Below, piece after piece: positions 9,884-61,210 of a stretch of 64,000 nucleotides of DNA (its first letter is position 1; the number at the start of each line of letters is the position of its first letter). Both the position numbers and the translations under genes were made by a program. The stretch is taken from the NCBI GenBank assembly GCA_037783545.1, contig JBBELK010000003.1, positions 3,658,001 to 3,722,000 of the forward strand, in the 5' to 3' direction. The stretch comes from Henricia sp. BOLD:AAB3569. Its lineage: Eukaryota > Echinodermata > Asteroidea > Spinulosida > Echinasteridae. Below the pieces are notes generated by a model. It saw only the letters and a program-made list of their open reading frames with translations, did no database searches and had not been told where the DNA came from.

Positions 9884-9966
9884 TGCTGTGCTACGGCTGG
9901 TTGAAGGGGACCAAATCCACTCAAGGTCACGATTTGGTTCCCGTTTACCAGCTAAAGCGCAGTAAA
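9884..9966 (-). ncRNA. mir-133: Precursor hairpin of microRNA miR-133
   Basis: On the minus strand the 3' arm (9915 down to 9893) begins TTTGGTCCCCTTCAACCAGC, the deeply conserved mature miR-133-3p, ending CCGT where the vertebrate form has CTGT. The 5' arm (9953-9932) begins AGCTGGTAAACGGGAACC and resembles vertebrate miR-133a-5p. The arms pair over about 22 positions with five mismatches around a 15-base loop (9931-9917), and pairing continues into the flanks (TGCGCTTT against GTAGCACA). miR-133 acts in muscle development, usually with miR-1 from a shared precursor. It lies antisense within the mib1 intron, 3.4 kb downstream of the exon. Hairpin ends are estimates; the mature position is secure. 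Confidence 0.96.
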
Positions 9967-10110
9967 ATAATGAAGTATTGACCAGTTCCCGTTGGCAGTC
10001 ACATTGTTGTCGTTATTGATGATCAAATTCTCCTGCCGTTGTATCACTGAAGTCTACAGTTGCTTTCCCAGAAAGTCCAACCTGATCGACCTATCAAATT
10101 CTGATTTCCA

Positions 10111-10513
10111 GGGGCCGATTTCATAAAGGTGTTTAGCAGAAAAATTGGCTTAATCCAAAATTTGTTTGCTTTATAAAAATGGGTTGTCAAAATTGTATGT
10201 CAACTTGTGTTCTTAGCAAGAATAGCAGAACACCAGTCAATTTTATTAGTCAAATTTATCAGATTTTGACTGCTAACCCATTTTTATAAAACGGGCCTCC
10301 CACTGTGTAATTTTTGCCACGAATTTCCAACGATTAGGTACAATTTGGTGAGATTACCAGAGACTGTCTGTAGACTCTATACACAATCGTACCAAATTGT
10401 ACCAAATTGTTGGAAATTCGTGGCAAAAATTGCACAGTTGGAGGTCCGCTTCAGGCAAACAAATTTCGGATTAAGCAACTTTTTCTGCTAAACAGCTTTA
10501 TGAAATTGGCCCC
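10111..10513. mobile_element. MITE with GGGGCCGATTTCATAAA ends, nested
   Basis: Starts GGGGCCGATTTCATAAAGGT and ends CTTTATGAAATTGGCCCC. Just inside, GTTTAGCAGAAAAATTGGCTTAATCC pairs with the right side (GGATTAAGCAACTTTTTCTGCTAAACA). The left half has an additional inverted repeat (TATAAAAATGGGTT against AACCCATTTTTATA). A second element is inserted at 10297-10443. Confidence 0.8.
10297..10443. mobile_element. Small foldback element inside a larger MITE
   Basis: TGTAATTTTTGCCACGAATT pairs with AATTCGTGGCAAAAATTGCA, and CCAACGATTAGGTACAATTTGGT with the right side (ACCAAATTGTACCAAATTGTTGG). The two outer CTCC/GGAG flanks also pair. Inserted in the element at 10111-10513. Confidence 0.8.
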
Positions 10514-10730
10514 AGATGTAGGCCTACTCACTACTTGATTTTGCTGGACCAATACGGGTTTACACACAAATCTTAACCAAGGAATACAGTGTTCCATATT
10601 TGTCTAATTTGATGGAATAATTGTTAATTACATTCGGAAAAAGCTTGAATTTGGTCAAATAAGCCTCCTTACATGTACATCTAGTTCAAAATACAAAATC
10701 AAATCAATTAAAAACAACAAAACACTGACA

Positions 10731-11095
10731 CTGTGTTCACACTTGTTACATTGACTTGGGATCAAGATTGATCCCATAATAAGTATGTGGTGATCTTTAG
10801 CCATTTGATTCGGAGCCGCGTTTAGATCAGCGTATTGATCCTCAGTGGAAAGCCAAAAGTTGCAATTAAAAATCATCAATGTTCATGCATAGAAGCCTAA
10901 GGTCAGCGATTTTTGCACACTGCACATTGATAAAAAAAACACAAAATGGCGTAAGGTTTTCATGCGCTCTATCTACACACCAGATTAAGACAATTCTTAA
11001 GTTGACCACAGGATCTGATCCTTATCCAGCATGGGATCATGCATCAGGATCTGATCTGGAGCTGATCCTAAGCTGGGGAATAAGTGTAAACACAG
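10731..11095. mobile_element. MITE with CTGTGTTCACACTTGTT ends
   Basis: CTGTGTTCACACTTGTT at the left pairs with AATAAGTGTAAACACAG at the right (two mismatches). The inside is full of GATC words (GGATCAAGATTGATCC, GGATCTGATCTGGAGCTGATCC). 365 bp, no coding sequence. Confidence 0.75.
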
Positions 11096-11099
11096 AGTG

Positions 11100-13680
11100 A
11101 TCATACTCACAGTACTTTTAGACTATTTGTGTATACTGGATTTTTACTTTAGTGTCTCGTACCTAGCATAAATTGTACCACATAATACAAAATACTACTC
11201 TGTGCCAGGAGCTAGGATTTGTTTAAAACTCAGTAGAATAAGATTCTATGTTGACTGTTGCTTAAACGAAAGATTGATATTTTTATAATTTATTAGGCAT
11301 AATATGGTGCAACTGTTCTTAGATTTGTAACAAATTGATTGATCACTTTTCAATCAAATTACCGTATCTGCGCATTTTGTGATTTATAAGTTACATCATT
11401 TGCATCATTTGCTGTATTACCGACCAATCACAATTCAAAACAGTCAAACTAGTGAAAAACAATCAATTTAATTGGTCAAATCTTGGCTATATCTGACCAA
11501 CCATAACTAAGCTCTCTTAGTCTGATTTAGCAAACAATAGGATCAAACTGCTACAACACATGAATGCATAAACCAGGAACTCGCTACATGTACAAATGTT
11601 CATAAAATGCATGTATTTCTATAAAAAGAAAAATATGTAGTAGCCTATGTACATGTATATATTTAACTACTGTAGTTAGAGACATGACCCCTTTTACATG
11701 TATTCAATCGCAGATATTTCATGATCCGTCTTGTATCTGTACTCATCTCATCTGGAATGCATTTGTCCATCATGTGATTTCAATTAAGCTAGGTCTGGAG
11801 CACAGACTTGTCATTACAAGATGACACTATTAATTGGGAATTCTCTGAATGCTTTAGAAATGCCTCAGTCTCGGCCATTCAGTAATATGTATAAATGTGC
11901 TAAATGAATCACCAGTATTATTGTTATCACTTGCGAGGGTCATATTTACTCTAGTCTAGATGCATTTTTTTCTGGATTCAATATCATTAAGTGCCCAAAA
12001 TTTTTGTAGAAAATCAGTGACACGCATTGTTTGTCTTGTCTAAAGCTTAATTAGTTGATCTTTCATATATACTACACATGTAGGTTAGGAATCTTTTATG
12101 AAACTTTGAAGAGTCAAACTTAGAAAACTCATCAATTCCTTAATTGTAGTCCAAAAAATTGAGATAATGGTGCTAGTACATTCTTAATTGGTGCTCATAT
12201 ACTGGTACATTTGTCAAATATATTATTGACAAACTGTTATATCTCACAAAAAAACCATTTTACTTATTGGAATTTACGATTGACTGTTGTGCTTAGTTGT
12301 AATACAATGCCAAAAATGCTTAGTGTTTTGCGATAAAACTCTTCAAATGTAACAATGGAAATAACCACATTTAACTCGAGCATCTGCTTAACTTTCACTT
12401 TAAATTGATTTCCTTGTGTTTTGAGCTAACGACATTACACTTAAAGTGCTTGCAAGACAGATGGTTGTTTCTATTCTTACCAAATGATGTTTCTAATTAA
12501 TAAGCGTCTTACTGCTTCATGCGTTGATGTTGACAGTGCAAGTCATGCGTGGGTTTTGATTTTCACTCAACAAACGAGCCCAGGTGCATATGAATATCTT
12601 GTTCAAATTGGCAGCTGGCTTTGACGTCATCTGTTTGCAAATTAACTCAGAGATCAAGAGCAGAGTTAATCGCATAAGTAGCGACAGTGCAACAAAGATT
12701 TAATGGAGAGATATTAGCAACTCATCTTAATATGAAACTAATGGTTTTGTTTATTCCCCTCACCTGGTTCAATGAAATAGCAGTGACGTAATTCACTCCA
12801 CTTAAATCTCGATACTTGGTTTAGATGCACGACAACATCCGTGATCGGCATTAGTTGAAGAATGTCCGGAAGTGTATGTCTTTTTCGCTACTTACTGAAA
12901 TTGGCCGTTTTGTTGCAAAACATCTCTTTTTTTGTCATAAATGATTTATGACATGCGTCATTCCATTCATAATGGACATGGCACATTAAAGTGACTTTAA
13001 AACAACTGCAGTTCTGTACTCCATCTGTGAATTAAATACTCTGCATGCCCAAGTTCCACTCGGCTCTGTTCACATTCTTACATCCGAGAATTTTTTGTCA
13101 TTGCTTTCTCACAAAATTGAAGTCACCTCATCCGCAAAATAGTGTCTACAATTCATCCTCATTCAGAATTTAATCATGAAGGTTGAAAATTGCATTTCTG
13201 GCATCACTTGTTGCAAACAATCCTGCAGATTCCATCTCGAAGGAACATTACACCAGAAACACCTTTTCTATTGTGCTGATTTTTTTTCAAATCATGCCAC
13301 GAAGCGCTGACAATATTTTCATCTGCATGAAAGACAATGTTCCTTTGTCTCGTGACACAGATGAATACTTACAAGTAACAGATAAAACTCTTGAGCATGG
13401 AGCTATCTCATTTTGAATCTGGATGAAGACATTTCTGCTTTAGCAGACACATCTTTAAGACAAGCTAGCATCGGGTAGGTGGACCTTCTAAAGCCTAGCA
13501 TCTGTTATTGCAGCATCTCGTGATAACATTCATCTGGAGATAATCTGAGTTTGCATCATCATCATCAGCAGCATCTTAAATTGTTTATTTCAAGTATTGT
13601 GTCCCCCTAGTTTCCGTGTCCTTTCTCCCGTCTCCCACTTGGCTGTTCCTTGTCCCTCTGTCAATGCTTGAGACAGTCAT
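11100..13680. other. AT-rich intron sequence, no gene seen
   Basis: Contains scattered ATTGGT/ACCAAT and ACATGTACATGT words and a CATCATCATCAGCAGCATC run near 13557. No exon, RNA gene or bounded repeat could be supported. An open frame at 13183-13416 has no recognisable protein features. Confidence 0.5.
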
Positions 13681-13930
13681 ATTTGGAAGTCCGACCTTAA
13701 GCCTTGCCCCGTAGAGATCATCACCGAGCAGCCGGCCCGCCAGCCTCGACGGTCTCCCTCAGCCTCCCACGGCCGGCAAACAGATCACGCCGGAATGAAC
13801 CCACTTCCCAAACTGGCAGGTCTTAAATAGCTCCGGCAGTCGGTGAGTTCCTGTCCAGTACAACGATGAGACGATAGTCCGCAATGAACGGCCGCGGCAT
13901 TCAGCTCCGTAAATGTCTTCAATCGAGGTG
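13680..13930. promoter_or_regulatory. Isolated CpG-rich patch, possible minus-strand promoter
   Basis: About 20 CpG dinucleotides in 250 bases (hand count), against a CpG-poor AT-rich surround. Includes GCAGCCGGCCCGCCAGCC and GAACGGCCGCGGCATT. On the minus strand GGAGCTATTTAAGACC is a TATA-like word. It lies 3.8 kb upstream of miR-133 in that gene's direction, so it might be a proximal promoter. It could equally be a fragment of an unrecognised exon. No repeat copy was found in the window. Confidence 0.3.
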
Positions 13931-14744
13931 TATCCAATAGCTAACTAGCGTCTCCAGCCGTGCGTTGTCTGGCTATTGTGTGCTTGCACTGTGTAGGCAG
14001 AATGACATTTTCTGTAGTCATACAGACATGGCTTTATAGGTGTGAGAAGATAAAAAACCTGCCTTATTGTGCTGTAAACTGTACAATACCGGAACTGGGG
14101 AAAGGAGTATCGCGCCCAAAGCTTGGAAGGAGTCAATAGGGATATACTGGGGTCAATAGAGGACTTACATACTGACCTTATATAGCTGACCTTAAGATAT
14201 CAATACATGAACTGGGTGTCTTTCTCTAACATTAACCACCAACTTTTTTGTTGAAACGTGGACAATTAGAAGATCATGTCATGATCTTTCCAGATAACCC
14301 ACTTTTACTGTGACACTAAAATGGCCCAGTCCAAGAATAGTGTGTCTTGTTAAGGGTAGAATCTACTTCTTATGTTACAACTTGAACTTTACATCTTAGT
14401 ATTAGCCAAATGTTGGTAAGTAAATGTGAGAAATTTCTTTTAAATTACAATTGTGAACTACATGTAAATAGAAATTTATCATTTTTTATACATTTTGGTA
14501 CCAAGTGTAAAATGTCTCTATGTTAGCAGCATGTTTTTGCAAACAAATACCGAATTTTCCTTGTGATCTATCCAAATAATTGCACATTGATAACTAGACA
14601 AATTAAATAAAGTCCATAAAAGCATGAAGGTTATTTAAAAAAAGAAAAATGGTAGAACAAACAATCAACTATCAAAGAAACTTGGTCGTAATCATCATAC
14701 CAATAAGGTCAATTCCATGTTGAATGTCATTCCAACCAATAAGT

Positions 14745-15083
14745 TGAAGGAGCGTGTCCACAACACATTTTTTACCTTGTCGTTTTTCCCATGGGTGTTG
14801 AGATTTTAAAACCATATCAATACCATTTTTCTTAATCAACATTCTGAAATTTCGCATTCTCAATACGAATATCTTTAAGGATACACTGTCGAAAAGCCAC
14901 TGTAAACTAGTTTATCTTGTTCCATAAAGCAGTGTAGTAATTACACCAGCCTTTTTGCTTCCACATCCAAATAGGAGATTGCAAATTTCCCGTTGTTTTC
15001 CCATGGATAATATTTTGGGAAGGTATTTTATATCATTGTTAGGTTAAAACAAAATCCATTTTCTGGAGAAATCTGGACTTTAA
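14745..15083 (-). mobile_element. AAAGGAGC family MITE, copy 1 of 5
   Basis: Shares with four other copies CCCATGGGTGTTGAGATTTT, CATTCTGAAATTTCGC, TTATCTTGTTCCATAAAGCA and TGCTTCCACATCCAAATAGG. Complete copies are bounded by TTAAAGGAGC and GCTCCTTTATAA (see 47449-47803). The short reading frames on the minus strand (WMWKQKGWC, KFQNGNE type) are not kept across copies, so it is not a protein gene. Confidence 0.8.
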
Positions 15084-15698
15084 CTGCCTAAATTTGAAAT
15101 ACATGAATTTTTTTTGCAATTAAATTGTAATGGTCATTCATAGGGATCTTTGTTTTATCAAAGAATTACACCAATGAATCAGTTCTTCAGAAATCATTTA
15201 AAATCCATGCATGGGTTTGTCTAAAGTGATTGCTCGCAAATTAATTTGCTCTCTTTTTTAATTTTAAAAACCCACACTTTCAGTTAAGTTCAGTTAACCA
15301 CAGAAATCATGTATTTTTTTATAACCATTTTTATTTTTGACTCGAAGTAAAATTTGAGGTCATTGCAAGTGTACATAATATGGACGTGACTGATTCCGAC
15401 CAAAAGGTTTCATCACCTCTTCTTGGGTCAATACGGTTGTTGCAAATTAAACACATTGACGTCAGCGTAATAGTCACATGTCTCACGTCTGCACATCAAA
15501 ATAGCGGAACAAGTTGTTACATTTTGAATTTTGATGAAGAAATTTAAATGCAAAATATCCCTAAGGATGGTGTACGTGTCTACTGGCTAAGGGCCGTGGG
15601 ATTTGATGTAAAAAATTAATCATAATTTGAGTTGTTTCAAGGACAGTTTGACTTTCATGTTCTCATGTTGGCTTTGCAAGTTGTGTAAACGTAAGCCG

Positions 15699-16024
15699 TG
15701 TCCGCATTGGACTTGTTTTTCGGCAGGTTTTACCGAGATGATTATAAAATGAAAAATGGCTATATTTTACCGAGTCCGTGGGAGAACATGCGCAGTGTCC
15801 CTTCGCAGAGTACGCTTCCATATCGCTTTTACCGACTCGCTGTGTCCGCATTGGACTTATCGTCTCGGGAAAAGTTCCCTGGTCAATTTCCTGGGCAGAA
15901 GTTGGCCAGGAAAAGTAACAGCTGGACTCGGGAAAAGTTACTGAGAGGAAAACGTCATAGGCTGTCTGCATTAAAAGTACCCATCGTCTCGCTAAGTTTT
16001 CCCCAAAAAAGTCCAATGCGGACA
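15699..16024. mobile_element. MITE with TGTCCGCATTGGACTT ends
   Basis: A perfect 16-bp terminal inverted repeat (15699-15714 and 16009-16024) bounds 326 bp. The end sequence recurs internally at 15841 (TGTCCGCATTGGACTTATCG) and the words CTCGGGAAAAGTT and CAGGAAAAGTAAC repeat within. Overlapping open frames on both strands (up to 128 residues) are by-products. Confidence 0.88.
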
Positions 16025-17359
16025 GGCCTATCTAGACTAAAGTCACCATGTTGCCAAATTTCAACTCATTGGTTTTTCATTTGAATGTTTTTCTTCATAC
16101 TACATGATCATACAATACTTGATGTACTTGATACCCGGTACATATTTCAATTTCACACCATTTTGCTAGCAATACTGTAGCAATACTTAGTTTCTTTTAG
16201 ACTAATTTTAACACAAATTGTCTACACACTCTTGTTTCAATTTTTTATACAAAAAATGTGATAGAAATATCAAACCTAAAATCTGAAATATTTCATCAAT
16301 GAAGGTTCCTATATCGTACAGTCTTTTTATAGAAATAGATACACCAAGATGCATCCATACATCTGCTGAAGTCGTTACTATGGGAAGAAAAACACATTCC
16401 AAAAGGATTTAAAATAGTTTGAATAGACGTTGAAGACCAGGGTTACTGAGGCTTTCAAATACGTAACATTGTATTTTAAGGGTCATAATGTTTTATTATT
16501 TTCAAGAGTGAACAAAGCTGCAAACATTGGAAAAATTTCAGAAGTTTTTTTCTGTGGTGTTGGTCAAGAAATGAAAATCATTTTTAAAAAATGATAATAC
16601 CTGTACTTTAAGTTTGGAAACAGATTTCATGCGGTTTTGCATGCAAACATACAGTTTGTTTGATGACCAGAGTAGTGCACAATCTCCATGGGGAGACCCG
16701 AGGCTTGAGCCCCCACGAGCTCTGCGTCGTCAGCCCGCTCAGTAAGACCAGAGAACCTCGGTTGTCTTACTACATTACCTATGTATGCAAATTGCTCTAC
16801 TGACGCACACATTTGTAACATGGCCCATATTTTTTTCTTCTCTTTTTTAACTTTCTGTATACTAACCAACTGATTAGGTTTACCACAGTGCAATTGTGAT
16901 AGTTATACATGTAAATATTTAGACTGTAAATTTCATGTTTTTGTATAACCGTTTTAAAATTATTCTTGGTAAAAGTATTCCACATGAAATTGTCACTATC
17001 ATTCATTTCTTACTTAACCTGGGAATTTCAACTCCTTGACCTAAATTTTACTGAGTAATCAAAACTGCTATTCAGTATTTAATATTCACTTAATCAATAA
17101 TTAAAATTTCTGTTAAATACACTAATAACTAATTCACATTTTTGAGTAAAGTTGGCCATGGTGCCTCTCCAATTTGGACAAAATCAGGGCCGAAATGTCC
17201 TACCTTTTTGTAGAAGCCTGCACTATCTTGTGAATATATGAGCTTGAATAAAATTTGTATTGATTTAGAAATAGATTTTAGTGAAACAAAAGAATTGTAC
17301 AACACTTACCTGGGTGTTGCTCTCAACATAATGTCGCTGGATCACTGGGCAAAGCTCAT

Positions 17360-17710
17360 TGTATCATTTGCAATGATCCATCATTTACTTCCTGAGTTGA
17401 CAAGAAAAAAAGAAAGTGTTCATAGCAATTGTAACAAACACCACGTGATTTTTTGATATCCGAAAAAAGGGCAACTTTCCTTCAGAAGTGAACAACTAAA
17501 ACTGCATCTGAAAGTGCTTTAAAAAAATGACTGTACACGGTCATTTTTTAGCATTCACTTGACAAAACAAAATTCTAAAACACTACTGCATCTACGAGGC
17601 TGAATTTTTTGCAGTTGACTTTACCGACATTTCGTCTTTAGGAATGCAATGGAATTTTTGTTTAAAAGTTGAATCTGCAAATGATACTATAGGCTTTCAA
17701 GCATAAGTCA
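17360..17710 (-). mobile_element. CATGTGGTGTTTG family repeat, copy 1 of 5
   Basis: Minus orientation: GAGTTGACAAGAAAAAAAG, ACAAACACCACGTGATTTTT, CTACTGCATCTACGAGGCTG. The borders are poorly preserved. Confidence 0.65.
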
Positions 17711-17871
17711 GTTGTTTGTGGTAGTTCTGGTTTTATCAAGTCCATAGTTCTAACCTCGCTGTTCACTCGATCTCGCATCCTTCCATCTCGCATCTTCCAT
17801 CTCAGACTCATCTCGTCCCTGACTTAGCATGAGTACAATGTAAGTCTAAACACTGCAGTAACCTGCACACG

Positions 17872-18641
17872 ATGCCAAAAAAGCTGCGTGGGCGGCCGGG
17901 GCCCGCCGTCGTCGGCGGGAAAAGTCCACGTCTAAGAGCACTGAGCAATCGTGATGTGTGTAACCCATCCCAATTCTCATCCTTTCTATGTTATCTTTTT
18001 TTTCACCTGTTTTCCTCATCATCTTGCGGCATACTTCTCGGCTGTCTCTCGCCCGCGTCACAATTTTATTTGGCTTACAATTTTGTGCCGTCGTTAGCAT
18101 GAAGTTCATCATCTAGACACGTACTCAAACTGCCCTGCATAACTATAATATGTGCTAGATAGTTTTTCTCAGTAAACAGCAGACAATTAAAATGAAAAAG
18201 TGCAACATCCTCACCATTCAGTACAGTGAATTTATGAAGGTGTTACTGGAGTCTAGCAACTTAAGTCCTACATCAGTGCACTCCATACTCACTTTAAGTC
18301 AATTTCTGATTACATCTTAGGAAGAGAGACTAATTGATGAGATTTCCCCCGATTCAGACACTCTTCTTCAGTGTTTCTTAGAATATGAAGACGACAACGT
18401 ATTGCAACCATGTCATCAGCATTGTGAAGACGACCCAAGTCGATGTCGCTATAATATATTACTAGTCCCGGAACCGGACCTCTCTCGCTATGTCAGTGAT
18501 TATGATAGTCACTCCGTCCAGCTGGTCACTTCTCTGGCCTGTTGCAGCTTGGACTGTGTCTACGTATCAGACTGCCCCCGAGACCCCCAGCTCTGCCCAT
18601 CGGCCCTGCGTCGCTACTGCCCTGCAGTCTGTGTTTTCTAA
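17872..18641 (+). CDS. Candidate two-exon small gene, weak
   Basis: A first exon may run from ATG at 17872 to 17955 (28 codons, basic start MPKKLRGRPGPAVV, resembling an AT-hook). A GTGTGT donor follows, then a 365-base intron with a pyrimidine tract, and an acceptor TTACATCTTAG at 18320. The second exon, 18321-18641, opens in the matching phase (EERLIDEISPDSD) and continues for 106 codons to TAA. Its C-terminal part is rich in Cys (CCSLDCVYVSDC) with GC-ending codons. The joined product would be about 134 residues. I recognise no family, and a false positive is likely. Confidence 0.25.
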
Positions 18642-19025
18642 GCTATTTTAGCCCCATCCTGCTGGCACACCACACACCATCATAAGCTAGTTTGTTAGTG
18701 AGTTGGCTCGGAGGTGCGTAGTCCTCCTCCGCCCACACACATCTTGAAGCTTCGTGTCTCGATGCATGCATCGTCTCATCGTGGTGATGATACACACTGT
18801 GTCACTAGTAATAAGAATGAATTACTCATGCATTACATGACCCTCGGCCCAACCTCACTTTGTCACTTCACAACTTGGGACTCTTGGTCAAATCTTAAAA
18901 GTATAATGGCTTGATACATGTTTTGTGGTACATGGCCTTACTCAATCGTTGTTTTAAAACATGATATTACTGCTTAGTAGGACTGTTCTCAAAATATTTC
19001 ATTGTTTAATGACGTGTCAAAGCCA

Positions 19026-19355
19026 TTAAAAACGGAATACATGATTGGAAAACTTTTGAAAGCAGAAATAACAGCATTACATAACTAAAGGATAATATTG
19101 ATAAACTGCCTTGTAGAAATTTCAGCCACATAGATTCAGTAATACTTATTTTAAAAAAACTGAAAAATCCATGGATGTTTTTTTTGTGTATGAATGAATG
19201 GTAAAAAAGTTGTCTGCAGACAACTTTAAATTTCTCCCACAAAGGTACCATTTTACACGGACAAAATTCATGTGGTGTTTGTTACCATTGCTATCAACAT
19301 TTTTATTCATTTTTAAAATTTTTGGTAACTTCAAATGATGTATTGGGTTTTAAGC
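19026..19355 (+). mobile_element. CATGTGGTGTTTG family repeat, copy 2 of 5
   Basis: GGAATACATGATTGGAAAAC at the left, TTTCAGCCACATAGATTCAG, the inverted repeat AGTTGTCTGCAGACAACTTT, and CATGTGGTGTTTGTTACCAT in family order. Confidence 0.75.
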
Positions 19356-21749
19356 AGGATAGTTTAATTTTCTGACAATATGAGGGACTGCAAAGTAGAA
19401 AATAACCCGTCTTTTCAAATCTTTAAGGATCTTCGGTATTTTTAGGTGTTTTTTGACTAATTTTCATCCAAACGAGCAACCACATGAAGCTCTTTCAAGG
19501 CAATTCATCTGTTTCTAATTTTGGAGTTTCTTTTCGATCCTCTGATAACTTTACATTACAGCACAAGTTTTAAAATCAACTTTTTTTAACTTGATCACAC
19601 CCTTTGGTAATAATAGTCTACAAATCTTTTTAGATAATTTTCTTTTACAACTTAACACTTAAAACCAAAGTTTAGCAAGCAATGAAAAGTTCTTTTATTC
19701 CATCAATGTGTTTGTGTGGAAATTTAAGTTGAAACAACTGAAGAAATTCCTGACATTTATCAGATAATAAGGTGAAATCCTAAGTCCAATCTACGCAGCG
19801 AAATTGTATAAATTTCGGACTTACTAGAAACAATTCATAGGTTTTGGTATATAGCTACATGTATATAGGTCAACCATGCTCCCTGCAGTAGTTATAACTT
19901 TGACTCGGACTCAAAATATGCATTGTCTGAAAGTGACAAGTAATTAGTGATCCTGTCTGTGTTGGCCTAAAATTGGCTACCTTTAAGTAGCAAATTGCTC
20001 TAGATTTTTGCCTCGCTACCCCCAACCGTCATCAAAGGGCATTGAGAGGGCATCAGAATTAGAAGAGTTTATATCTTGATCTATCCTTCTACCACTTCAC
20101 ATCCGGTCCTCTTACAAAACACCCCCCTTCAAGATTGGATATCTATATAATTAGGTTTATTCCGCTCCTCTAAAGTCGGTTGAACAGTCCCAAGTATGCC
20201 CCAAATACCTCGCCAGAAGGCACAGTCGGCCTGATACCGAGACGGGGGCATCCAAAGGACACCAAATGTTCAATTTGTGTTTTTTCTCTTATTCCTCTGT
20301 CTCTCTGACATTACTTGGGATGGGTATAGAGCCCACAGCATAGCGGTGTGCCATGCCGATTTTAGCCTCCGCGATATCGTACACCGTCTTAACCGGTACT
20401 CTGAGCTCACTACCAATTTGTCTCCCACGAGGCAATCAGCGGCGCGGCCGATGTGTCGCGTGTCGCTTGGAGTGGTGCTGCCACGCGACTTTGATAACTT
20501 TGGACAGTGTGGTATGTTGGCTGAGCTTTCAATATTAGCCGTCTGCGGCTAAGCAGAGTTCCAACTAAGGGCCTTGGGGTTATTCCCAGCATGTTGCCAT
20601 GCTTTCTGTACTTTGTTCCGTTACAAATATAAAACAGCTGGCTATGTTTTCATTTGAGAGCCTGTTTTTGTAAGGTCATTTTTTTCACCAGTTCAAATCA
20701 GCACAGATTACATGTTTGAATTACCGCGCTGCTCTAAAGTAGTCCTGGAACTAGTTCTATGATTTGACTTTTCTTGTTGACCCTGAGTGTTACAATTTTG
20801 ACTTCAGTTCCCCCTCCCCCTGCCCTCTCCTCCTCCTCCTGCCCTCTCCCCTCCTCTCTTTTTGGAAAAAAATCTTATTTATTCCCAAACAGTTGAACAC
20901 TGGTTTCAAACACTCACGTAACAATAAAAGAAAAAAATGACATTAAATCGTGGATAACATTTTTCTGTATGGAAAAAAACTGCCAAATTATCAAAACTGA
21001 TTCTGATCATTTGCATTTTGCGAAAGAATGGTTTAGTTGCTCGTAGAACACAAAAAAAGTTTTCTCAGGGCAAAAACAACTTTTTGCCAATTTCTGGTAG
21101 CCTAGTGGTACATGTAACTGTCAAGCACCAAGTTCGCACTATTTTCAGCTGTACACTACGGTACACACAATAAGTTACGGATATTAGTGTGGCTCAGTTT
21201 TGAAATTGTTTTCAAAAGACTGTTTCCACCTATTCCTGTGACAAGTTGCGTCTGTCATGCAGATACAATTGTCTAATCATATACAAAATCATTCAAGCGA
21301 ATGCATACCCTCAATAAAATAATCTGCGTACTGTACACCCCATAATGTCCCTAACTTATTGTGAGTAGTGTATTTTCACACTACTTTTAATACAAGACAT
21401 CACCCGTTATCTAATCTTGTACAGGGCCCTTTACCAACTGTCGTTCTGCTGTCCTTGAATCCTGTTACGCAGTTGGCATGGGACAACTGTCCCACCATCA
21501 TCTCCCATCCCTAACAGTTTGAAACAGACACTGCGCTTAATCTGGAAATTAACAGACGGCAGTAACGTGACATGTTCTGAACTTTATATGACCTGTTTAA
21601 AATTGATCAGTTTTCATAAAAAGGTGAATACAGGCTAAAGAAAAGTGGCGGCATTGCGGCCCAGAGGACAGTGTTTCGCTCTAACCTAACCAGAGGACAG
21701 TGTATTAAACAGTGTTTCGCTCTAACCTAACTATCATATAAAATACAAG

Positions 21750-50038: not shown

Positions 50039-50919
50039 GCTAAACATTTCATATATTTATGCACGCATGGTTGATTACCAAAAATGAGAACAGAATTGGA
50101 ATTAGTAACGATACTAAACATCTGGCATGGATATCTCCATGTCATGACGTGTTCAATGTGCTTGGGCTGGTTTTAGTCATGTCAACAAGGGTATTTTGTC
50201 AATGCCAATAACACTATCAAAATGATGAATTTAAGAATATCCCATATTTTATCGACGACACTCGAATTTCAATTGTAATTTTTATGAAATTGAAAGATTC
50301 TTTTTGATGGTACGACATCCGTACGCTGTCATCCATTTACGTGAAATGTACAATTTTCATTGGTCTTTTTTTCTTCTTTGAGCTGCTGATACCTGATTAA
50401 TTTCTCAACCTACATGTACATTAAGTATTGAGAAATGACTTATTTTATAATGGGGTTTCAACTGTGGCTTAAAGTCAGTGGTTTTCACATCCCCAATGCA
50501 CCACCCATTGGTGTTCTGGTTCTCGAGCCCGTCAAACATGTAGCGACATGTACCAGCATAGCACACCCCATGGCTTAACAGCTGTGCATTCGGGCATACG
50601 TACGCTGCGCCGGCTCACTGTGTTATAATACACAGCTAGCTAGACATTGTGCTGAGTTAGCCATGGACGTTACACAGCCATACATCTTTGCCCAGTTGTT
50701 GTTGATCGTTGCGTTTTGGGTGACCCTATTAACTGGAAAGGTTAGCTGCATCTTCTTTAATGAGTGATCAACCATCTTTTTTTCAACATATGGCAAAGGA
50801 AAATGATGAAAATGAGAGAACTGAATGTTTGTGCCATACCTTGTTTGTTGAGTGAAGGTGAAGCGATGTGCAGTTTGGAGCGACGTTGAACTTGTTGTCC
50901 TATGTTCCATCTTACACCG

Positions 50920-51182
50920 GAGATGGTCTTTTCCCGCAGCAGGGAAATGATGTTTGCGACTTGGGAACACGACGCGAAGCTACAAAACAGACTTTCATCG
51001 TCTTGCCCCAACCGAAGTTTGGGAAGCACAGAAGTTTCCCAACGGGTTTTCAAGTGAAGAGCCGTCGTAGTGAGTGTGGGAAACGTCTTCAGCAGCCCCA
51101 GAGAGAAGGATGTGGGCGTAGCAGGAATCAGTGATGGGCAGAACGCGCAACAGACGACAGTGACCGACCGACGCATTGGCAT
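50920..51182 (-). CDS. Candidate first exon on minus strand, weak
   Basis: A minus-strand frame from ATG at 51182 (MPMRRSVTVVCCAFC at its start) continues for over 80 codons to KTISG, where GTAAGATGG gives a good donor word near 50917. The region is richer in CpG than its surroundings. The plus strand is also open here for 88 codons (50868-51134), so the frame alone proves little. No family recognised. Confidence 0.2.
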
Positions 51183-52135
51183 TTTTGACAACGAGATAAT
51201 ATATTAATCAGATTCATAAAGTGATATTGTACAACGCCAAACGATGGAAAAAATTTTGTGAGATAGAAAGTTAGGATACTTTTTTAAGGGAAGGTTTAAA
51301 ATCAACGATCTAAAATCGTTTACCGCGAGAAAAAAAGGTGAACGTGGAGAGAAATTGACACGTGCAATACTGTGTACGGTGTTGTCTGTCTCAGGTTTAG
51401 ATGTAATATGGGGAATGCCAGCCCTGGCTTGACTGTCTACTACATGTATAAGCTTCATCCGCCCACACACTCTCAGGCCAGTGGCTAGATGGAAAGAACA
51501 CGGCTTGGTTGGTACTGTGCACAAAAAATTATAGAGGTAGAAGGGAAAAAAATCCTACGTGTACTACGTCTGCTCCAATACGGCACATTCAAATCAATGT
51601 TTGTAGTCGGGGATTTTTCTCAGTAATTCCTACATAACGTTATTTTTATGCCATAATTTTTATGGTCATGAGGATTTTAGGAGAATATTTTCCTTGTAGT
51701 ATTTATCAGTTAAAATTGTTTTTATAATAATAACATCGTTAATGAGTGATGTTATATACACACTATGACAAGGAAGTTAAAGACTTATATTGATCACATG
51801 ATTACCACTAAACTCATGACAATGATGAAATCCATTTATTTTTTCCTCATCTTAAAATGGGAGTTTCCCCACAGTGTCTAATTTTGAAATTCCTCATGTT
51901 AGATACATGTATCGCCACCTGTTGCTTAAGAGACTAGATTTCGTGTCAAATCAAAAAGTTCACTCCAAATCGTCCAATAACAAAAGAGAAGTCAATTCTA
52001 TTTGTAACACCATTATTTTCACAGAATTTTAACAAAAATAACTCGGGCAAAACATGGAATTCTAATTTAAAAAACAGAACCAAGCAAAAACAATTAAACA
52101 GAAAATCCTGCAGTCTAGTATCTCATACAATTCTT

Positions 52136-52279
52136 CATGTTGACTTCTAAAGACATTCAAATCATGTTGCCTTCTAAAGACATTCAAATCATGTTGCCTT
52201 CTAAAGACATTCAAATCATGTTGCCTTCTAAAGACATTCAAATCATGTTGCCTTCTAAAGACATTCAAATCATGTTGCC
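52136..52279. repeat. 27-bp minisatellite, 5.3 units
   Basis: The unit CATGTTGCCTTCTAAAGACA plus TTCAAAT repeats five times with one base difference in the first. Because 27 is divisible by three, both strands remain open (SKDIQIMLP repeats on plus, RRQHDLNVF repeats on minus); this is not evidence of a protein. Confidence 0.97.
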
Positions 52280-52689
52280 TGATATATTTTTCATATTTCA
52301 ATTTTGTAATAACATGTTACGTGTATTGTAGCATTACGTTTGAGGCCGTATCTATGGCTGTACATAAATGATTACACCATATTGTGAAGTTGAGTTGATT
52401 AAAAATTACCACATGGTTCAAAGAATTATGATTTTGTTGTTGAACAGAGAGGAATAATTCATGATGATGATGTCATCATTAGCTGATCTTATTAATTTCA
52501 CAGAAGTTCTTGGTCATTCCTACAATGCGGGTAACCACAATTTTTTTAATTTCGGGTATTTTTCTATTAGAGTATTTCCTTTTTGAGGGAGGGGTATTTC
52601 CTTGTTTTTATTTAATGTACATTTTTTTCTTGGTTTCTGGTTGTCGGTTTAGATTTTGGTAAGCTCTCCAGGAATCATTTGTGGACTCG

Positions 52690-53220
52690 GGGGTCACACG
52701 AGAAAAATCTCGTAATTACTCGATTATGATACGATTGTAATAATTCCAACGACGACTCGGGTCAGACGACAAACTTATTATAATCGAATTGTAATTGTAT
52801 TACAATAAAGTGGGGTCACACGAGCAACACAATCTCGTAATCGTATTGTAATCCATCCATTCCCTATGCGTGTGTTGCGTGTTGCGTGTGCATGCCTGTG
52901 TCTGCAGTGTGCCACACGCGCGCTGCGCCTAGCGCCCTAGGAAAAGTAGGCCAGGTGCACGCAGTGAGGCAGAAAGCACGCGCGTGCGCAAGGCCAGGGG
53001 AAATAGGTTGTAATACGATTACGAGATTGGGTCACACACGTGTTTTGCCAATTTATTGTAATACGATTACAATAGTATCACAATCGAATGATGAGAATTC
53101 TCGTCATTGACCGATTGTGATACGATTACAATAGATTTGGGGTCACACGCACAAAGTCTCATAATCGTACTATAGTAATACTACAATAAATTGGGATGTC
53201 GTAATTCGTCTCACCCCGGC
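52690..53220. mobile_element. Element built of TTGTAATACGATTACAA-type words
   Basis: GGGTCACACGAG/GGGTCACACGC recurs at 52691, 52814, 53029 and 53141, each followed or preceded by forms of TCTCGTAATCGTATTGTAAT. The left and right halves are inverse around a GC-rich centre (52862-53005, CGCGCGCTGCGCC). A MITE or compound palindromic element. Confidence 0.75.
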
Positions 53221-53819
53221 CTTAGTTACATAATGAAGCTTGGTTCCTGATTGCTCATTCTACAGTTTCACAAAACATTTATCAGATACCATTCAATTAC
53301 TGTAGAATACACATTTTCTGTTCAATAATTTATTTCTTCCTTATTTTTCCCAATCTAGTGAACAGAATGGGTCATTTCACATATTTTTGGGAAACTGTTA
53401 CTTAATTTGTTTTTTTACAGTGGCATTTATGTTTCCCATTTTTTAGTATTTGATGTGGGCTGTACACAAGTAACATAAAATGTTGAACAACCCGCACAAC
53501 CGTGTGGACTTTGGTCCGACGTATGTAATTAACTCCTCCTACCACTTCCGTTATCGATCAATATGTATTATTTGCACCATGTGTCTACCCGCTTCATTCA
53601 TAAAGCAAAAAAACATCCAAAACAATTGCGTGGTTTCATTCATAAAAAAGGTAATATATTCAGCAGCGGACGTTCATTCATAAAAAAATACTGGAATAAA
53701 AACAGCTGGCATTTGATAGTAACAGCTTTAAAGGGGAGTTTGTACATGGCTAGGATTAAAGGAACCACAATAAAACAAGTCAGTTAGTGTTGAATGGTCG
53801 ACAATAACTGCATTATGAA

Positions 53820-53905
53820 TATTCATATCCTTAAATTATTTGAATAATTCATTACCATTTAAATAATTCACCAGTTAAATATTCAAATATTTGAATAATT
53901 AGTAC
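53820..53905. repeat. AT-rich palindromic cluster
   Basis: ATTTGAATAATTCATTACCA, TTTAAATAATTCACCAG and AAATATTCAAATATTTGAAT form several overlapping inverted repeats. Low-complexity hairpin-rich DNA. Confidence 0.6.
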
Positions 53906-54194
53906 TGCTGGATATCCCCTTCAAGAATGTCCGTCTATGTTTCTTGATAAGCCACAAGGCTTCTATTGTCCATGTGACATGCCTTTGGCTGGCTGTCGGT
54001 TGGGAGGGGGGGGGGGGGGGGGAAGGTGCAGTGAGTGGATTCAGTACCGTGTCTGTGTAGTCGACATGCCGTCTACGTCATGCCACACTGCAATCATTTG
54101 ATTAACCTCTGCGGCTATGACGACATGTCCCTTGAGTGCTTGCATTGCTCCGTCCATTTCTCCAGATCCAACACGTTGTCAGACCGCCTTACTA

Positions 54195-54224
54195 CCCCCT
54201 CCCCCTCCCCCTCCCCCTCCCCCC
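54195..54224. repeat. CCCCCT microsatellite
   Basis: Hexamer CCCCCT repeated about five times. Confidence 0.92.
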
Positions 54225-55557
54225 ACTCTTTCCAACAAATTCAGGAAACTGATTCACACAATTCATTGAACCCACCACACAGTGACGTACTGGTAGGCTG
54301 TTCCATTTGTTTACACATGATTTACTGAAACACATTGTGATATTTCAGGTGTTAAAACCTCAATGCAAACAACTAAAAAACAAACAAATTATCAGTTCGC
54401 TGAAACTGGATTTTTGGGGATCTAAACTAAGGCTTTCAGTAATCACTGTTTTTCACAAAAATGCATGTATTTCCTCCCACCTCCCAGAATGTTTCTTTTT
54501 CCCAACAAAAATTTAAAGAACTGTACAAACGTACTATTAGACTGAACAAATAAGGCAACAATTGCATAATCTCTGTATTGGTGACAGGGAGCTTAGAGGG
54601 GCTAATTTGATAAGTTCCAACACCTGTAGTATTCCCTGTGTTTTTTCCCCAAACATTTTCGTCCTAATCCTTGTTTTTCTGTCCAATTTTGACGTCACTG
54701 CATTTGTTTATTGCAAATTATAAGCTTTTGTTTTTCTCCCCGATAAGCCCCAGCATTGCTTGCCTACTTGTATACACTGTTTGTTTCCCTACGTTGTCTT
54801 CTTTGTTTGTGACCCTTTCCTTCACCGACATCCGATAACATCACAAACAAATTTTACTAGGAAAGCAACCTGGCTCTTCTCTTCATCCCAATAATCCATT
54901 CATTCAGGCTTGTTTTCCTCCCAAATCATTGTGAAATTATTTGACTTTCTTTTACACATTTTCCCCCAAAATGTCACCGTTTGTGGACACAGGAACACCC
55001 CCATATTATCATCTTGGCTTTGCCCATTTACCGAGTGCCTGTGCATATGGAATCAGCTACATGCAAACACGCAGCGTGAAAGAAAAGACATGAAGTGAAA
55101 AGGAATGCCATATATGTAATAGTTGTTTCCGAGTGACCATTCACGGGCATGCGTTTGACGTCGCATGATGTCATCGTCTATACGAGATGACATCATCGTA
55201 GTGGGACGGGATAAATTTACATAAAAGCTGCCTGGGTGCGTGGTCGGCTTGTGTGTACATTGAGATAGGAACTGTAGGTGGATATTTGGTTGTTGTTGAA
55301 ACCGGCATATGCTAGGTCGTAATAAGATGTGTGTGTGAAGTCATGCAATGTGTGGAGGGAGCCTTAAACCACCTGCATTCAAATCGATTTCCACTCAATT
55401 GTTTTTATTTCAGTGATGGGAAATTTAATGCCAAATTTAAAAAGAATAATTGAAATATTTTTGAATGATTTTAAAAATTCATCTATGATTATTTTGAAGC
55501 ATATTTTGTTTGCTGAAACCCGAGAATTACTTCTTTCTGGTACTGAAACCAAGGATT

Positions 55558-55742
55558 CCTCAAAAGTGCCATTTGTACTGTCGCTTGTAAGAGTGAGGAA
55601 ACCCATGAGGAGAAGACAATGGATTAGAAATGGCCAGAGACACCGGGAAATCTCCTTGCTTGACATAAAAGAATGCTCTGGGATCTTTAAAGTGCGTTAC
55701 CTAACACACTGGACCAACGGCCCTACGTCCCTTCCAATGCAG
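55558..55742 (-). mobile_element. SINE body, inverted copy
   Basis: Reverse complement of the 3' two-thirds of 31531-31840: AAAAGTGCC, AAACCCATGAGGAGAAGACA, GAATGCTCTGGGATCTTTAA, CCTAACACACTGGACCAACG. The tRNA head is missing. Confidence 0.85.
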
Positions 55743-56304
55743 ATTATCTTTTTTATAACAAAAACCTTGTATTTTCAGGAATAAAAAATAATAAAAAATA
55801 AGGAATTGGGACCTTAAACTTTCCTCTTTATAAAATATAAGCAGAATATTGTATTAACAATGTCCTGATGTCCTGAATGTATTTTATTCGCGCGTGTTTG
55901 CATTGACACATAATACACTGTAGTTCAACAAGAAGCCCTCTATGATAGCACTCGTCGTAAATAGATGTATTAATTTGTTGTGATATTTGTTTTTTATTAC
56001 TCCACGTCTCTATTTTTAATTTTATGCCATTTTACATGACAAAATAAACGCCTCTGCCTTTTTTTATCTTACATTAGTCATAGCGGAAACGGATGTACTG
56101 GTAGTACGTGTAGTGTGTGTTAATTGGACAGCTGTTGTTGTGTTTGGTACCAATCCCACGATTCGTTCTCCTGTTTGTCATTTCTGTTTCTGTCGCAAAA
56201 CGAGTCGGCCACGAGGCATGTACAACAATAGAATTAAATGGCCTATTTTTTATGAGGTTATGTTGTGGGGAGAAATTTGGTGTTATGTTTGACTCGTAAC
56301 TAAA

Positions 56305-56470
56305 GTGTTTTGTGCCCTCAGGCAAGACACTTTGCCCGACTTGCCTCTCTCCACACAGGTGTATAAATGGGTACCAGCATCATGCTGGGAAAGTAAACAG
56401 ACTCGCTGTGTGGGAGGAGTCGTAAACCCCCTTCCTAATGAAAGAAAGATGGGCACTTTATATTTAAAAC
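56305..56470 (+). mobile_element. SINE body of a second subfamily, plus copy
   Basis: GCAAGACACTTTGCCCGACT, GGTGTATAAATGGGTACCAG, AGACTCGCTGTGTGGGAGGA and AGATGGGCACTTTAT. The tRNA head is absent. It is inverted relative to the fuller copy at 56640-56920 only 170 bp away. Confidence 0.82.
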
Positions 56471-56639
56471 TTGGGGGAACCTTTTAAGGTTGTTTGTTAC
56501 AGAAAGATGAAGAATTACGAAGAAATGCAGTTGTTTTGGGGTTTAATCTCGAGATGGTTCGTGATGCAGGATTTTCACGAGGACTAGAACGTTGTTTGTG
56601 GAACTAAATTCATCAAGGTTGTCCTTGTAATTACAAGCC

Positions 56640-56920
56640 AGAGTGCCCATCTCTCTTTCATTAGCGAGGGGGCCAGACTCCTCTTTCGAGTTTGCTGTGG
56701 GTGGTTCGCTACTCCTCCCACACAGCGAGTCTGTTTACCTTCCCAGCATGATGCTGGTACCCATTTATACACCTGGGTTGAGAGAGGCAATTCATGGCAA
56801 AGTGCCTTGCCCAAGACCACATGCACCGTGGACGGGATTCGAACCCACGACCTATGGAGTTACCAAAGTCTTGGATTCGGCACATTCAGTACACTACACG
56901 ACTCGGCCATGGTGCCCCGG
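56640..56920 (-). mobile_element. tRNA-headed SINE, second subfamily
   Basis: On the minus strand: GGGCACCATGGCCGAGTCGT (A box, type II tRNA head), GTCGTGGGTTCGAATCCCGT (B box), then GGCAAGGCACTTTGCC, GTGTATAAATGGGTACCAGC and a tail with GAGATGGGCAC. Open frames across it are by-products. Confidence 0.85.
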
Positions 56921-57069
56921 GAACCAAATTCAGTTTACCTTTTTTTTTAAATTTATTATAAAAGATCAAGTAAAAGTGACTGTTTCTGACAGTTTCAGCT
57001 TTAATCTGCCCAACACTTTAGTGTTTATTTCTCTTCTCATTTTAATAATTAAACCAAGATTTTAAAGTG

Positions 57070-59071
57070 AAAAATCAATTTTGATGTGGGTGAAAATTGG
57101 AGCAACTCCCACCATGTTGAATTAGTAGCCTCATGCAGCAAGGGCTAAATTTTCGGAAGTAATTTCGTAAACTTAAAAATCAAGGACATTTTTGTAGACC
57201 AAAGGTCTAAACTTCATCCCACATGGTAGGGGTTAAATTGTACGTGGGTGGGACGAAAACTAATCAGCGACCAAACTAGGTTTGGCTTGGATCCCAGTTT
57301 GTGGGTGCTGGGGCACACAGCGCGACAGACGGTCGAAGCACGTAGCGCTGTATTTATCTTGTGGGGGTAGTAAATTACCGACGACTCGCTATCTTCTTGT
57401 TTAGGGGGAATTAAATATCTTGCGTTACGTTACTTCATTTTGGGTTGAGGTAGTGTGTGTGCCATGTTCATGTGACATTAACATATGTACAGCAGCCACG
57501 CAAGCATATGGCAAATTTAAACAGCTTGGGAAAATGATAATTTTGTTTTAGGGGGCGATTGTAGGGGAAGGGGAGAGGGGACCGCAGTTGGTAAACTGGG
57601 GTCAAATACAATGGCAGTTCGCTTTGGTTTTTGAAAAGAAATCAACTTTGAATTTTTTTTATTATTATTTGGTTGTTCACATCCTATCTCCAAAATTTAC
57701 ATTTTTCCCCTAATTGTAAATAAAATGTAATCATTTTTAACCTGGTAAGCATCTTAAAAACCAAGGGAAGTTGGGGGGGGGGGGGGGGGGGGTGGGTGGT
57801 CAACATGAATTAGCTCTTCTTTGTCTTATTCTACATGTATTAATTTCTGTTGTTTCAGATTCATGCAAGTGTGACATTTTAAACTGAATTTTAAACTAAA
57901 AAGTGGGTCTGCAGCTAGAATTTTATTATTGGAAAAAGGGTTTAGCCACGGTTTAATTAACAATGTACATCATTTGTTTTTATCCAAAATATTCACAAAC
58001 TACGTCAAAACAAAATTTCTCATTCCAAGCTAAGTCTTTTGTGTACATAAGTTCACTAAGACATTTAAGCTAGCATGTAGGTAATCGGTGTTTTGAATGG
58101 AGCATTGTCGTCAATGGGCAAACAACCCACACAGATAAATAGCATCATGCCTTGGCTCAAATAACCCAATGTTGACAAACATGTGTTTGGCTTAGTGTGC
58201 TTTACAAACAAATAAAAGGCAACATTTGCGTACTAGTTGGCCACAAACCAACGTACGTCATCCGTACTGCATATATCTTGTGTTCATGTACATGTAAACA
58301 CTGTAGTGACACCTCTCCCATTCACCCCAATGCATATTACGTCTCCCTCAACCATTGTGGTAACATGCAAAAGACACCGTACTGCGCATTGTGCCGGCGT
58401 TAAGTGGATATCCTCGCGATGGGATGACGACAACGCGATCTTATTCACGCTACGTACCGTATGCCCATTCATCAACCACAATGGCTTATGTGTGTGCACC
58501 AGCACGGACAGTTTGTGTGTTTGTGGGTTTATCCTGTAAGTTGGCAGCATGTTGCCAAAAGAGGGCGCTCTTCACAAATCCTTACTTCCCAGTTATATTT
58601 CTACTTCTGCTTCCGATGGATCATTCTTTTCTCAAATTGAGCTTCTTTTTTTTTCATTTCGATATCCTGCCCTTTTAAGACTAATATAAGCTGTTTTGGA
58701 TTATGTAAATAAGAAATTCTAAAAAAAATTATTATTGATTTTTTTCTGTTGTGATTAATGAATTATAAAAAGATACAATACCGGTAGTTTAAAGTAAACC
58801 TTGAAGATATTCAGCTCTGTCTTGCAGACAGTCAATAGAGGGCTCACTTCATATGTATTGACTAAGAAATGACAATTGTCGGCCAGGTCCTACATGATCT
58901 AAATGCAATATACATGTAAGCAAAACAGAATATTTAATCATTTGATGGATTAAATACTTGTTTAAATATTTCTTCTGTAGATTTATTCTGTAAATCAGAC
59001 TGTGGCAAAATGGTTCTCGAGGCAGATAACGTTAGAGAAATTTAAGATCTCTTAACTCTTTCAGATTTTTC
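57070..59071. other. Intron filler, no gene supported
   Basis: Apart from the poly-G tract, nothing recognisable. Overlapping frames at 58237-58678 on both strands have no protein-like features. Confidence 0.4.
57773..57792. repeat. Poly-G tract
   Basis: Uninterrupted run of about 20 G followed by TGGGTGG; potential G-quadruplex former. Confidence 0.9.
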
Positions 59072-59370
59072 TTAAAGGAGCATGACCAGATCACATTATT
59101 GACCCCCACATTATGGGTCATATTTCTATGATCACCATTTTGAAATTGTGCGCCCTCAATCCGTATATTGCCAGAGATATCATCAAAAATACACCAAAGT
59201 TTAGTAAGCTAATTTATCCGGTTACATAAAGCAGTGCAGCGATTACACCAACATTTTTCCTTCCACATCAAAATTGGGGAATTCAAATTTCCTGTTTTCC
59301 TCCCATGGATATAGTATTTTAGACTAGAACGAAATCCATTTTGTGGAAAAATCTGGACACTCTTGCATAA
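59072..59370 (-). mobile_element. AAAGGAGC family MITE, copy 5 of 5
   Basis: Starts TTAAAGGAGCATGACCAGAT, then CCTCAATCCGTATATTGCCA and TTATCCGGTTACATAAAGCA. The right terminus has decayed. Confidence 0.8.
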
Positions 59371-60121
59371 AAATGGTGTCATAATTTGAATCCTAAGTGA
59401 CATAAATTGTAAAGCACCTTTGTGTCATAACTTTTGACATTAAAAGATAGTTTTATCTTTCTTTTTTAATTCTTTGGAAAAAATGCCCTGGAGTTCCTTG
59501 AAAAAGGTGCCATTTTGAGTTATTTTCAGAAAGCTTGCAATTAACTTTAAACATTCATTTTTGGTAAATAGTCTTTCTTGTGCTCAATTAAACTGAAGAT
59601 TTACTAAAATTGAAACTAGGCCTAGGCTAAAAAAAAAGAGTTTTCTGACATTTATCTCATAAGCTCAAAGTTGTTTACACCATCTATGTGGTAGCTAGGT
59701 TACTGGAGGTTTCACAAGCCGATGGATACACGTACGCATACGTTTAGCTATCCGTAACTGTTAGTCTGCATTTCTGTGGTTTTGCAATTCCAAAACTAGC
59801 TAAAAGGCGTCTATTTCCAACAGCGTAAAAAAGTTGTCTAACTTTGGTTCAACCAAAAACAGTATATCTCAGTTGTGTCTGAACAGCCTACATAATTAGC
59901 ACCAAAACCATCTAATTCCGCTCTTCATAAAGAGAAACCTTCATAGACTACTGAGGCTAGCGGTGTACATGTACATGTATGTATAGACCGTTTTCAGTTA
60001 AACTGCAGACCCTCCAGTATGGTGTTTAGACAGTTTCATATGCAGTCTAAGTTGGCACTGTGACCTGTGTACAATTGTTATTGTTGTTGACATACAAAAA
60101 CAAAAAACATGTCAATGCATA

Positions 60122-60360
60122 CATAGTTCCGATTTTGCCCAGTTAACCCCGCCCCCTTGGATATTGTTGCTATGGCTCACACGCTATCGTCAAAATGGCG
60201 ACACAAAACGCACAAAGCAATGGGACTTTCAATGGAAAGCACAGATTCATTGGAGAAAACTCAAAGGTATTCATGTTTCAGGGTCGACAGTTATCTTAGA
60301 ACACACCGAGTAAAGGACCAGTAATACAGGGATGTCATATCTTGAATTACGTGCTTTCGT
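60122..60360 (+). repeat. 239-bp duplicated block with short ORF, copy 2
   Basis: Second copy of 1722-1960. The ORF (60195-60299) stays open over the same 34 codons with one amino-acid change (H to Q at codon 4) and one silent change. The upstream GC box reads CCCCGCCCCCTTGG. It lies 760 bp left of the miR-1 hairpin. Confidence 0.85.
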
Positions 60361-60756
60361 ACCTTTGAACAACGAAACGACCGGCCTTGAAACCAAAAAT
60401 TCACCCGGAACATCGCATACAACACTGTACAAATTGTATGGTGCAGAACATCGCGTGATGTTGTTGCAAACATTGCACTTTGACCTATGTGGGTGATCTC
60501 TGCTAGCTCTGTTGTGATTGGTCGGCGGGTTCGGTTGATTGACAGGTCGGAACTATGCATTATGTACACTAGCAAAAGTCTGCAAGCAGCTCAGTCATGT
60601 CTGAACAATCAGTTTTGCATTGAGTAAAAGGTCCACAGACTGTTAAACCTTTTTTTGGTGTTACTTAGTGTCAGAAAATGGCCGCCTTCTTTACCAAACT
60701 TAACTTGTTGTTGTACAGAGTTGGTAAGTAAGCACAGTGGGGAATCAGGTTGATGT

Positions 60757-60990
60757 AGCGGTTCTTTCCTCGCCTTCCACCTCTGTGGCCCTGGTTCGAA
60801 TCCCGTCCGGGTCAGTATGTGGATTGGGTTCTCAGTCTCTGCTTGATTCCGTGGGTTCTTCGTAATACAGAATTGTATTGTAAAAGGGTTTTCCTCCCAC
60901 CTCTAAAACTTAGCATTTCTTCATCGTCTTCTCTTCACAGGCTTACAAGCTGCAGTGCCTTGGGCACTTTTGAGGATTCCTTGGTTTCAA
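60757..60990 (+). mobile_element. SINE-like copy with tRNA B box, near miR-1
   Basis: CTGGTTCGAATCCCGTCCGG is a B box; the tail TCATCGTCTTCTCTTCACAG, TGCAGTGCCTTGGGCACTTT matches the tails of the other SINE copies. It ends about 130 bp from the miR-1 hairpin. Confidence 0.7.
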
Positions 60991-61121
60991 AACCAGAGAG
61001 AATTATTAATAATAAGAATCACCACCAGCTGGAATGCTGAAGTGCTATTTTCATCTTTGTGATCACTTGTGTTTTCTGAAGAAAGCTTGCCTCATAAAGC
61101 ATCTTCACAGTTGGATGTCAT

Positions 61122-61210
61122 TGCCCCAGCAACAATACATACTTCTTTACATTCCATATGACGATTTATCATGACTATGGAATAGTAAGGAAGCATGTCT
61201 TGTCCAAGAG
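61122..61210 (-). ncRNA. mir-1: Precursor hairpin of microRNA miR-1
   Basis: On the minus strand the 3' arm (61156 down to 61135) is an exact match to mature miR-1-3p, containing GGAATGTAAAGAAGTATGTA. The 5' arm (61198-61177) begins ACATGCTTCCTTACTATTCC and pairs with it over about 18 positions with two mismatches and one bulge, around a loop at roughly 61175-61158. The base of the stem extends: ACAAGACATGC faces GTATGTATTGT with one mismatch and one G-T pair. miR-1 is the ancient muscle microRNA. It has the same orientation as miR-133 and lies 51 kb upstream of it in the direction of transcription, antisense to mib1. Hairpin ends are estimates; the mature position is secure. Confidence 0.97.

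Follow-up and report, generated by a model that had tools for sequence, protein, structure and literature searches.

The miR-1/miR-133 pair is reported to lie antisense in intron 12 of MIB1 in vertebrates, the honey bee, and the flour beetle (PMC2500172), which gives its data for the two insects as unpublished; in silkworm, the same source places the pair outside MIB1, between it and another gene. The human host transcript is described as lying antisense within MIB1 intron 12 (PMC13276959), and in ray-finned fishes the pair is reported as intronic in the same host (PMC4177693). A 2024 study found that in the purple and the green sea urchin, just as in human and mouse, both microRNAs are nested in the Mib1 region (PMC11076791). 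According to that study, the annotations of L. variegatus and of A. planci (crown-of-thorns sea star) place the miR-1 region in a Mib1 intron, whereas those of P. miniata and S. purpuratus make it intergenic; in S. purpuratus the nearest flanking Mib1 exons are approximately 142 kb apart, and a single Mib1 transcript was supported by PCR on cDNA across the gap. In flatworms, the spacers between miR-1 and miR-133 range from 11,705 to 34,008 bp and the pair is located beside Mind bomb genes (PMC4405270); the same source, citing another study, states that the Drosophila pair falls outside the definition of a conserved cluster. For amphioxus, PMC3145563 mentions muscle expression. Since both the nesting and large spacings have been published (PMC2500172, PMC11076791, PMC4405270), the central claim of the present analysis, wide spacing included, is known in kind: nesting in mib1 is already documented for vertebrates, insects, and sea urchins, and the locus described here adds a good, if unremarkable, example to these.

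The DNA analyzed is a stretch of 64,000 nt from Henricia sp., hereafter the window. Potential microRNA precursors were identified by searching the whole window with the Rfam covariance models, and the two best-scoring matches define the following features.

9888..9960, minus strand: mir-133 precursor hairpin, with the conserved 19-nt core of its 3p arm at 9896–9914
61128..61207, minus strand: mir-1 precursor hairpin, with its 3p arm at 61135–61156
9961..61127, minus strand: spacer between the hairpins (51,167 nt), with no mib1 exon detected and no other Rfam family at its gathering score

Both precursors score above the gathering scores of their families, mir-133 (RF00446) with 65.2 bits versus 55.5 (E 8.7e-13) and mir-1 (RF00103) with 61.3 bits versus 45.6 (E 1.9e-10). 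The z-scores of the folds are −3.55 for the mir-133 hairpin and −6.31 for the mir-1 hairpin, each better than 200 of 200 dinucleotide shuffles, and on either strand both hairpins outperform all 200 shuffles. The 3p arm of mir-1 (61135–61156) is identical over all 22 nt to the human-type miR-1-3p, and the 19-nt core of miR-133-3p occurs a single time on the minus strand of the window. Neither hairpin is overlapped by within-window repeats (E ≤ 1e-8). The assignment of the two hairpins to the ancient miR-1/miR-133 pair is therefore supported by the family scores. As had been proposed in a preliminary description of this DNA, with coordinates that proved correct to within a few bases, both microRNAs are encoded on the minus strand, on which miR-1 is read first and miR-133 second, and the gap of 51 kb that it gave was measured as 51,167 nt. 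A chance origin of the hairpins was considered and is ruled out by the Rfam E-values together with the shuffles. For other microRNA families, the Rfam search gave only weak matches between the hairpins, all under the gathering scores, which were taken as chance.

The hairpins were also scored on the plus strand, which is the sense strand of mib1. In this orientation mir-1 (61128–61207) reaches 51.9 bits and is likewise above the Rfam threshold, and mir-133 (9888–9960) reaches 50.3 bits, under the threshold of 55.5; the mir-133 hairpin is more stable on the plus strand than on the minus strand (−38.1 versus −28.9 kcal/mol). By these scores, microRNAs made from the plus strand at the two hairpins would be a minor possibility.

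The host gene is represented in the window by one exon, located to the left of the mir-133 hairpin.

6323..6474, plus strand: mib1 ankyrin-repeat exon (start phase 0, end phase 2), identified by its match to 8v0e, tblastn, and splice sites

This exon of 152 nt is preceded by CACAG, which supplies the AG acceptor, and followed by a GTATGT donor; it is entered in phase 0 and left in phase 2 after Gly-Asn-Pro. The open reading frame that contains the ankyrin stretch (6275–6529, plus strand) matches PDB entry 8v0e (MIB1) in one alignment of 51 residues with 84.1 bits, compared with at most 16.2 bits per single stretch for the two other ankyrin chains reported. Per single stretch the exon is thus a better match to MIB1 than to other ankyrin proteins; if scores are summed over many repeats, the ankyrin chain 4rlv (126.9) outranks 8v0e (116.6) for this reading frame. 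When human MIB1 was used as a tblastn query, residues 559–616 aligned to bases 6320–6493 with 76% of 58 residues identical (E 9e-22). Nowhere else in the window is there a significant match: the remaining alignments with E < 1 pair other ankyrin repeats of MIB1 with the same exon, which corresponds to human residues 560–609. Thirteen of the best 120 of 228 homologous proteins have a named source, and 8 of these 13 are called mind bomb or MIB1, the remaining 5 being hypothetical or carrying an automatic gene identifier. The mib1 ankyrin exon that the preliminary description had placed on the plus strand is, as judged from these alignments and the splice sites, real.

Two copies of a MITE-like element flank this exon in inverted orientation.

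6100..6267, strand not assigned: MITE-like element, left copy beside the mib1 exon, forming an inverted pair with 7127–7277
7127..7277, strand not assigned: right inverted copy of the same MITE-like element, paired with 6100–6267

The copies are 168 and 151 nt long, share a core of 81 nt that is 98% complementary, and have ends that resemble TTGGGCTTTTGC...GCAAGAGCTCAAT. They are not part of the microRNA locus. Pairing between them could loop the exon out and thereby favor a circular or skipped exon.

Across the window, tblastn with the whole protein found no further mib1 exon upstream or downstream (best outside match E 1.9), and a short-query search for the neighboring exons gave a best outside match of E 0.29 over 10 residues. 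Likewise, no other mib1 exon was found in the window with the preceding and following human MIB1 segments or with the following part of a homologous protein (P0002, source 'ncbi'), it being understood that tblastn may overlook a very short or diverged exon. Because no other mib1 exon was detected, the 57.5 kb from 6475 to 64000 behaves as an intron.

6475..64000, plus strand: apparent start of the mib1 intron containing both microRNAs, with no further mib1 exon by tblastn and its 3′ end beyond the window

Both hairpins therefore look like residents of one mib1 intron of at least 57.5 kb, the far end of which would lie beyond the window. The hairpins are on the minus strand and the exon is on the plus strand, and miR-1 precedes miR-133, which is the arrangement of a mib1-nested miR-1/miR-133 locus. 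The preliminary description had the pair antisense inside mib1: the opposite strands, the position of the donor, and the lack of any exon detected by tblastn between the hairpins support this, and location inside mib1 is a strong inference from the one exon in the window, since the next mib1 exon would be beyond base 64000.

The position of the intron was assessed with the best 120 of the 228 homologous proteins found, which were classed by pattern. In 104 of these best 120, the residue next to the shared part is Arg, in Gly-Asn-Pro-Arg or a near variant of it, which is the residue to be expected when a phase-2 AG|GT donor is read through; 52 of the 104 stop there and 52, which were inspected by eye, continue into other residues. 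The other 14 of the best 120 do not have this Arg, with 9 continuing as Ser-Ala-Met or Cys-Ala-Met, 3 as Gly-Ala-Ile or Gly-Ala-Met, and 2 otherwise; for these 14, either the intron is absent at that place or the sequence is a spliced one. Two proteins of the best 120 fall into neither donor class. Upstream of the first residue of the exon, the pattern classes comprise 111 proteins with unrelated sequence and 9 with the preceding MIB1 sequence among the best 120, and in 14 of the 120 the exon peptide is exactly the human one, with the Arg after it. The recurrence of Gly-Asn-Pro-Arg across the homologous proteins therefore suggests a donor at the same codon and in the same phase as in vertebrate-type genes. 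Judged by these protein frames, the donor would occupy the position common in metazoans, after Gly-Asn-Pro and in phase 2, and the exon at 6323–6474 is regarded as homologous to the one that immediately precedes vertebrate MIB1 intron 12. P0002 has nearly the same exon peptide, followed directly by Ser-Ala-Met-Lys; some relative may lack this intron, or the sequence may come from a spliced or partly spliced transcript.

The spacer had been described as full of MITEs, which is more than the repeat content demonstrates: within-window repeats (E ≤ 1e-8) cover 5,863 of its 51,167 bases (11.5%), and only part of these are palindromic. Several palindromes in the spacer are of the MITE-like kind, with short loops and arms that are 88–93% complementary. 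The palindromic MITE-like elements at 25372–25514 and 61934–62074 are 91% identical to each other, and one of this pair is approximately 0.7 kb upstream of mir-1. A tandem array at 28105–28548 consists of 6.4 copies of a 69-bp unit with 95% matches. To the left of the hairpins, two tRNA-Thr(AGT)-like genes, oriented head to head, form a palindrome whose arms are 114 nt long (8778–9065), and a third related stretch is found 54 kb away at 63343–63417; these copies are possibly a tRNA-derived repeat. Another tRNA-like match is located at 7456–7528.

Counts of muscle-related motifs over the window were compared with 30 first-order Markov samples. The MEF2 consensus is not enriched (28 on both strands versus 21.9 ± 8.0), nor is the CArG consensus (5 versus 6.1 ± 2.6), and because these matches are at chance level, muscle enhancers are not demonstrated here. 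E-boxes are slightly more numerous than in the samples (CAGCTG, 21 versus 11.9 ± 4.0; CASCTG, 66 versus 51.0 ± 7.4), counts from which tissue-specific function is not readable. Two overlapping MEF2-type matches at 61003–61015, approximately 115 nt from the mir-1 hairpin, would be a weak lead only as a hint of an enhancer. The enhancers of the paralogous mouse pair are reported to use MEF2 and SRF (PMC3772891).

Taken as a whole, the evidence supports with high confidence the reading that this is the orthologous miR-1/miR-133 muscle locus, antisense in a mib1 intron equivalent to vertebrate intron 12, in an animal in which this intron is large. As known for the two families, each hairpin would be transcribed from the minus strand, cutting by Drosha and Dicer would yield miR-1-3p and miR-133-3p, and expression would be expected in muscle. 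The spacer would have grown by neutral intron expansion. Linkage has most likely been kept by the embedding of the microRNAs, together with their muscle enhancers, in the intron of an essential gene; separation would be costly, because most rearrangements that split the pair would break mib1 or strand enhancers. Shared or embedded enhancers at the locus are plausible. The cases of silkworm and Drosophila indicate that the linkage can change, and they count against this account of entrapment.

Whether the pair still forms one transcription unit is evenly balanced: miR-1 and miR-133 could be separate units that are merely still linked, as has been argued for flatworms. A gap of 51,167 nt between the hairpins fits separate units, but animal primary transcripts can be longer than 50 kb, which counts against them. 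For the flatworm spacers of 11.7–34 kb, which hold predicted genes, a single transcript was judged unlikely (PMC4405270), whereas the paralogous mouse pair miR-1-1/133a-2, with 9.2 kb between its members, is reported to be bicistronic (PMC3772891).

Selection might instead act on the nesting itself, as the preliminary description suggested: the two genes might share enhancers, or transcription of the microRNA unit in antisense might lower mib1 in muscle and with it the activation of Notch ligands; we consider this unlikely. It would account for the deeply conserved antisense position that vertebrates share with bee and beetle (PMC2500172) and for the nesting seen in sea urchins (PMC11076791). 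It would also suit the reports that the Notch pathway, in which miR-1 acts, requires Mib1 (PMC2500172), and that the human antisense transcript of this locus acts with MIB1 protein (PMC13276959), as well as the suggestion in PMC3777988 that the deletion of miR-1-2 only, made by another group, may have disturbed neighboring genes. However, in mouse embryos without both clusters, mib1 expression and splicing were unchanged by qRT-PCR (PMC3777988), which speaks against regulation of the host by the microRNA unit, an experiment that is no test of antisense transcription as such; moreover, the silkworm pair lies outside the gene (PMC2500172).

An elaboration in which the nesting is kept since transcription of a 50-kb antisense unit tunes mib1 in muscle, and in which this lineage in addition gained the inverted MITE-like copies that could fold the exon out, is highly improbable; if it were true, the exon would be circular or skipped, and mib1 output would be sensitive to processing of the exon region. 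Equally improbable is that the mib1 exon is isolated, duplicated, or misassembled and that the microRNAs lie outside a working mib1 gene, a reading that fits the presence of only one mib1 exon in 64 kb and the annotation of the S. purpuratus locus between two genes both named Mib1 (PMC11076791), but not the open frame and standard splice sites of the exon at 6323–6474 or the cDNA PCR that supported one transcript across the S. purpuratus gap (PMC11076791).

With the embedded, orthologous locus as the preferred reading, the window provides one clean data point for a very deep nesting of microRNAs in a host gene that was already known, and shows again that strand and host intron are retained while the spacing is free to grow. 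Genomes in which the spacer is 51 kb long could help to separate one transcript from more than one, and nesting that is selected from nesting that is hard to undo.

Among described systems, the vertebrate miR-1-2/miR-133a-1 cluster (MIR133A1HG) shares both microRNAs with this locus and is likewise antisense to MIB1, and its donor position, as seen in the proteins with the human exon peptide, is the same as here. In the vertebrate cluster miR-1 likewise comes before miR-133, and the spacing of the human MIB1-nested cluster is a few kb, versus 51 kb in Henricia sp. As the preliminary description had held, spacing is clearly not what is conserved; it is 51,167 nt here, and large spacings had already been published (PMC11076791, PMC4405270). 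The sea urchins S. purpuratus and L. variegatus have both microRNAs nested in the Mib1 region, as here, and in S. purpuratus ~142 kb separates the nearest exons (PMC11076791). Flatworms resemble this locus in having a linked pair with long spacers (11,705–34,008 bp) near Mind bomb genes, but differ in that the spacers contain predicted genes and the Mind bomb genes are neighbors rather than one host (PMC4405270). In silkworm, a linked antisense pair adjoins MIB1, a likeness to the present locus, but is located between MIB1 and another gene, whereas here the pair appears to be intronic (PMC2500172).
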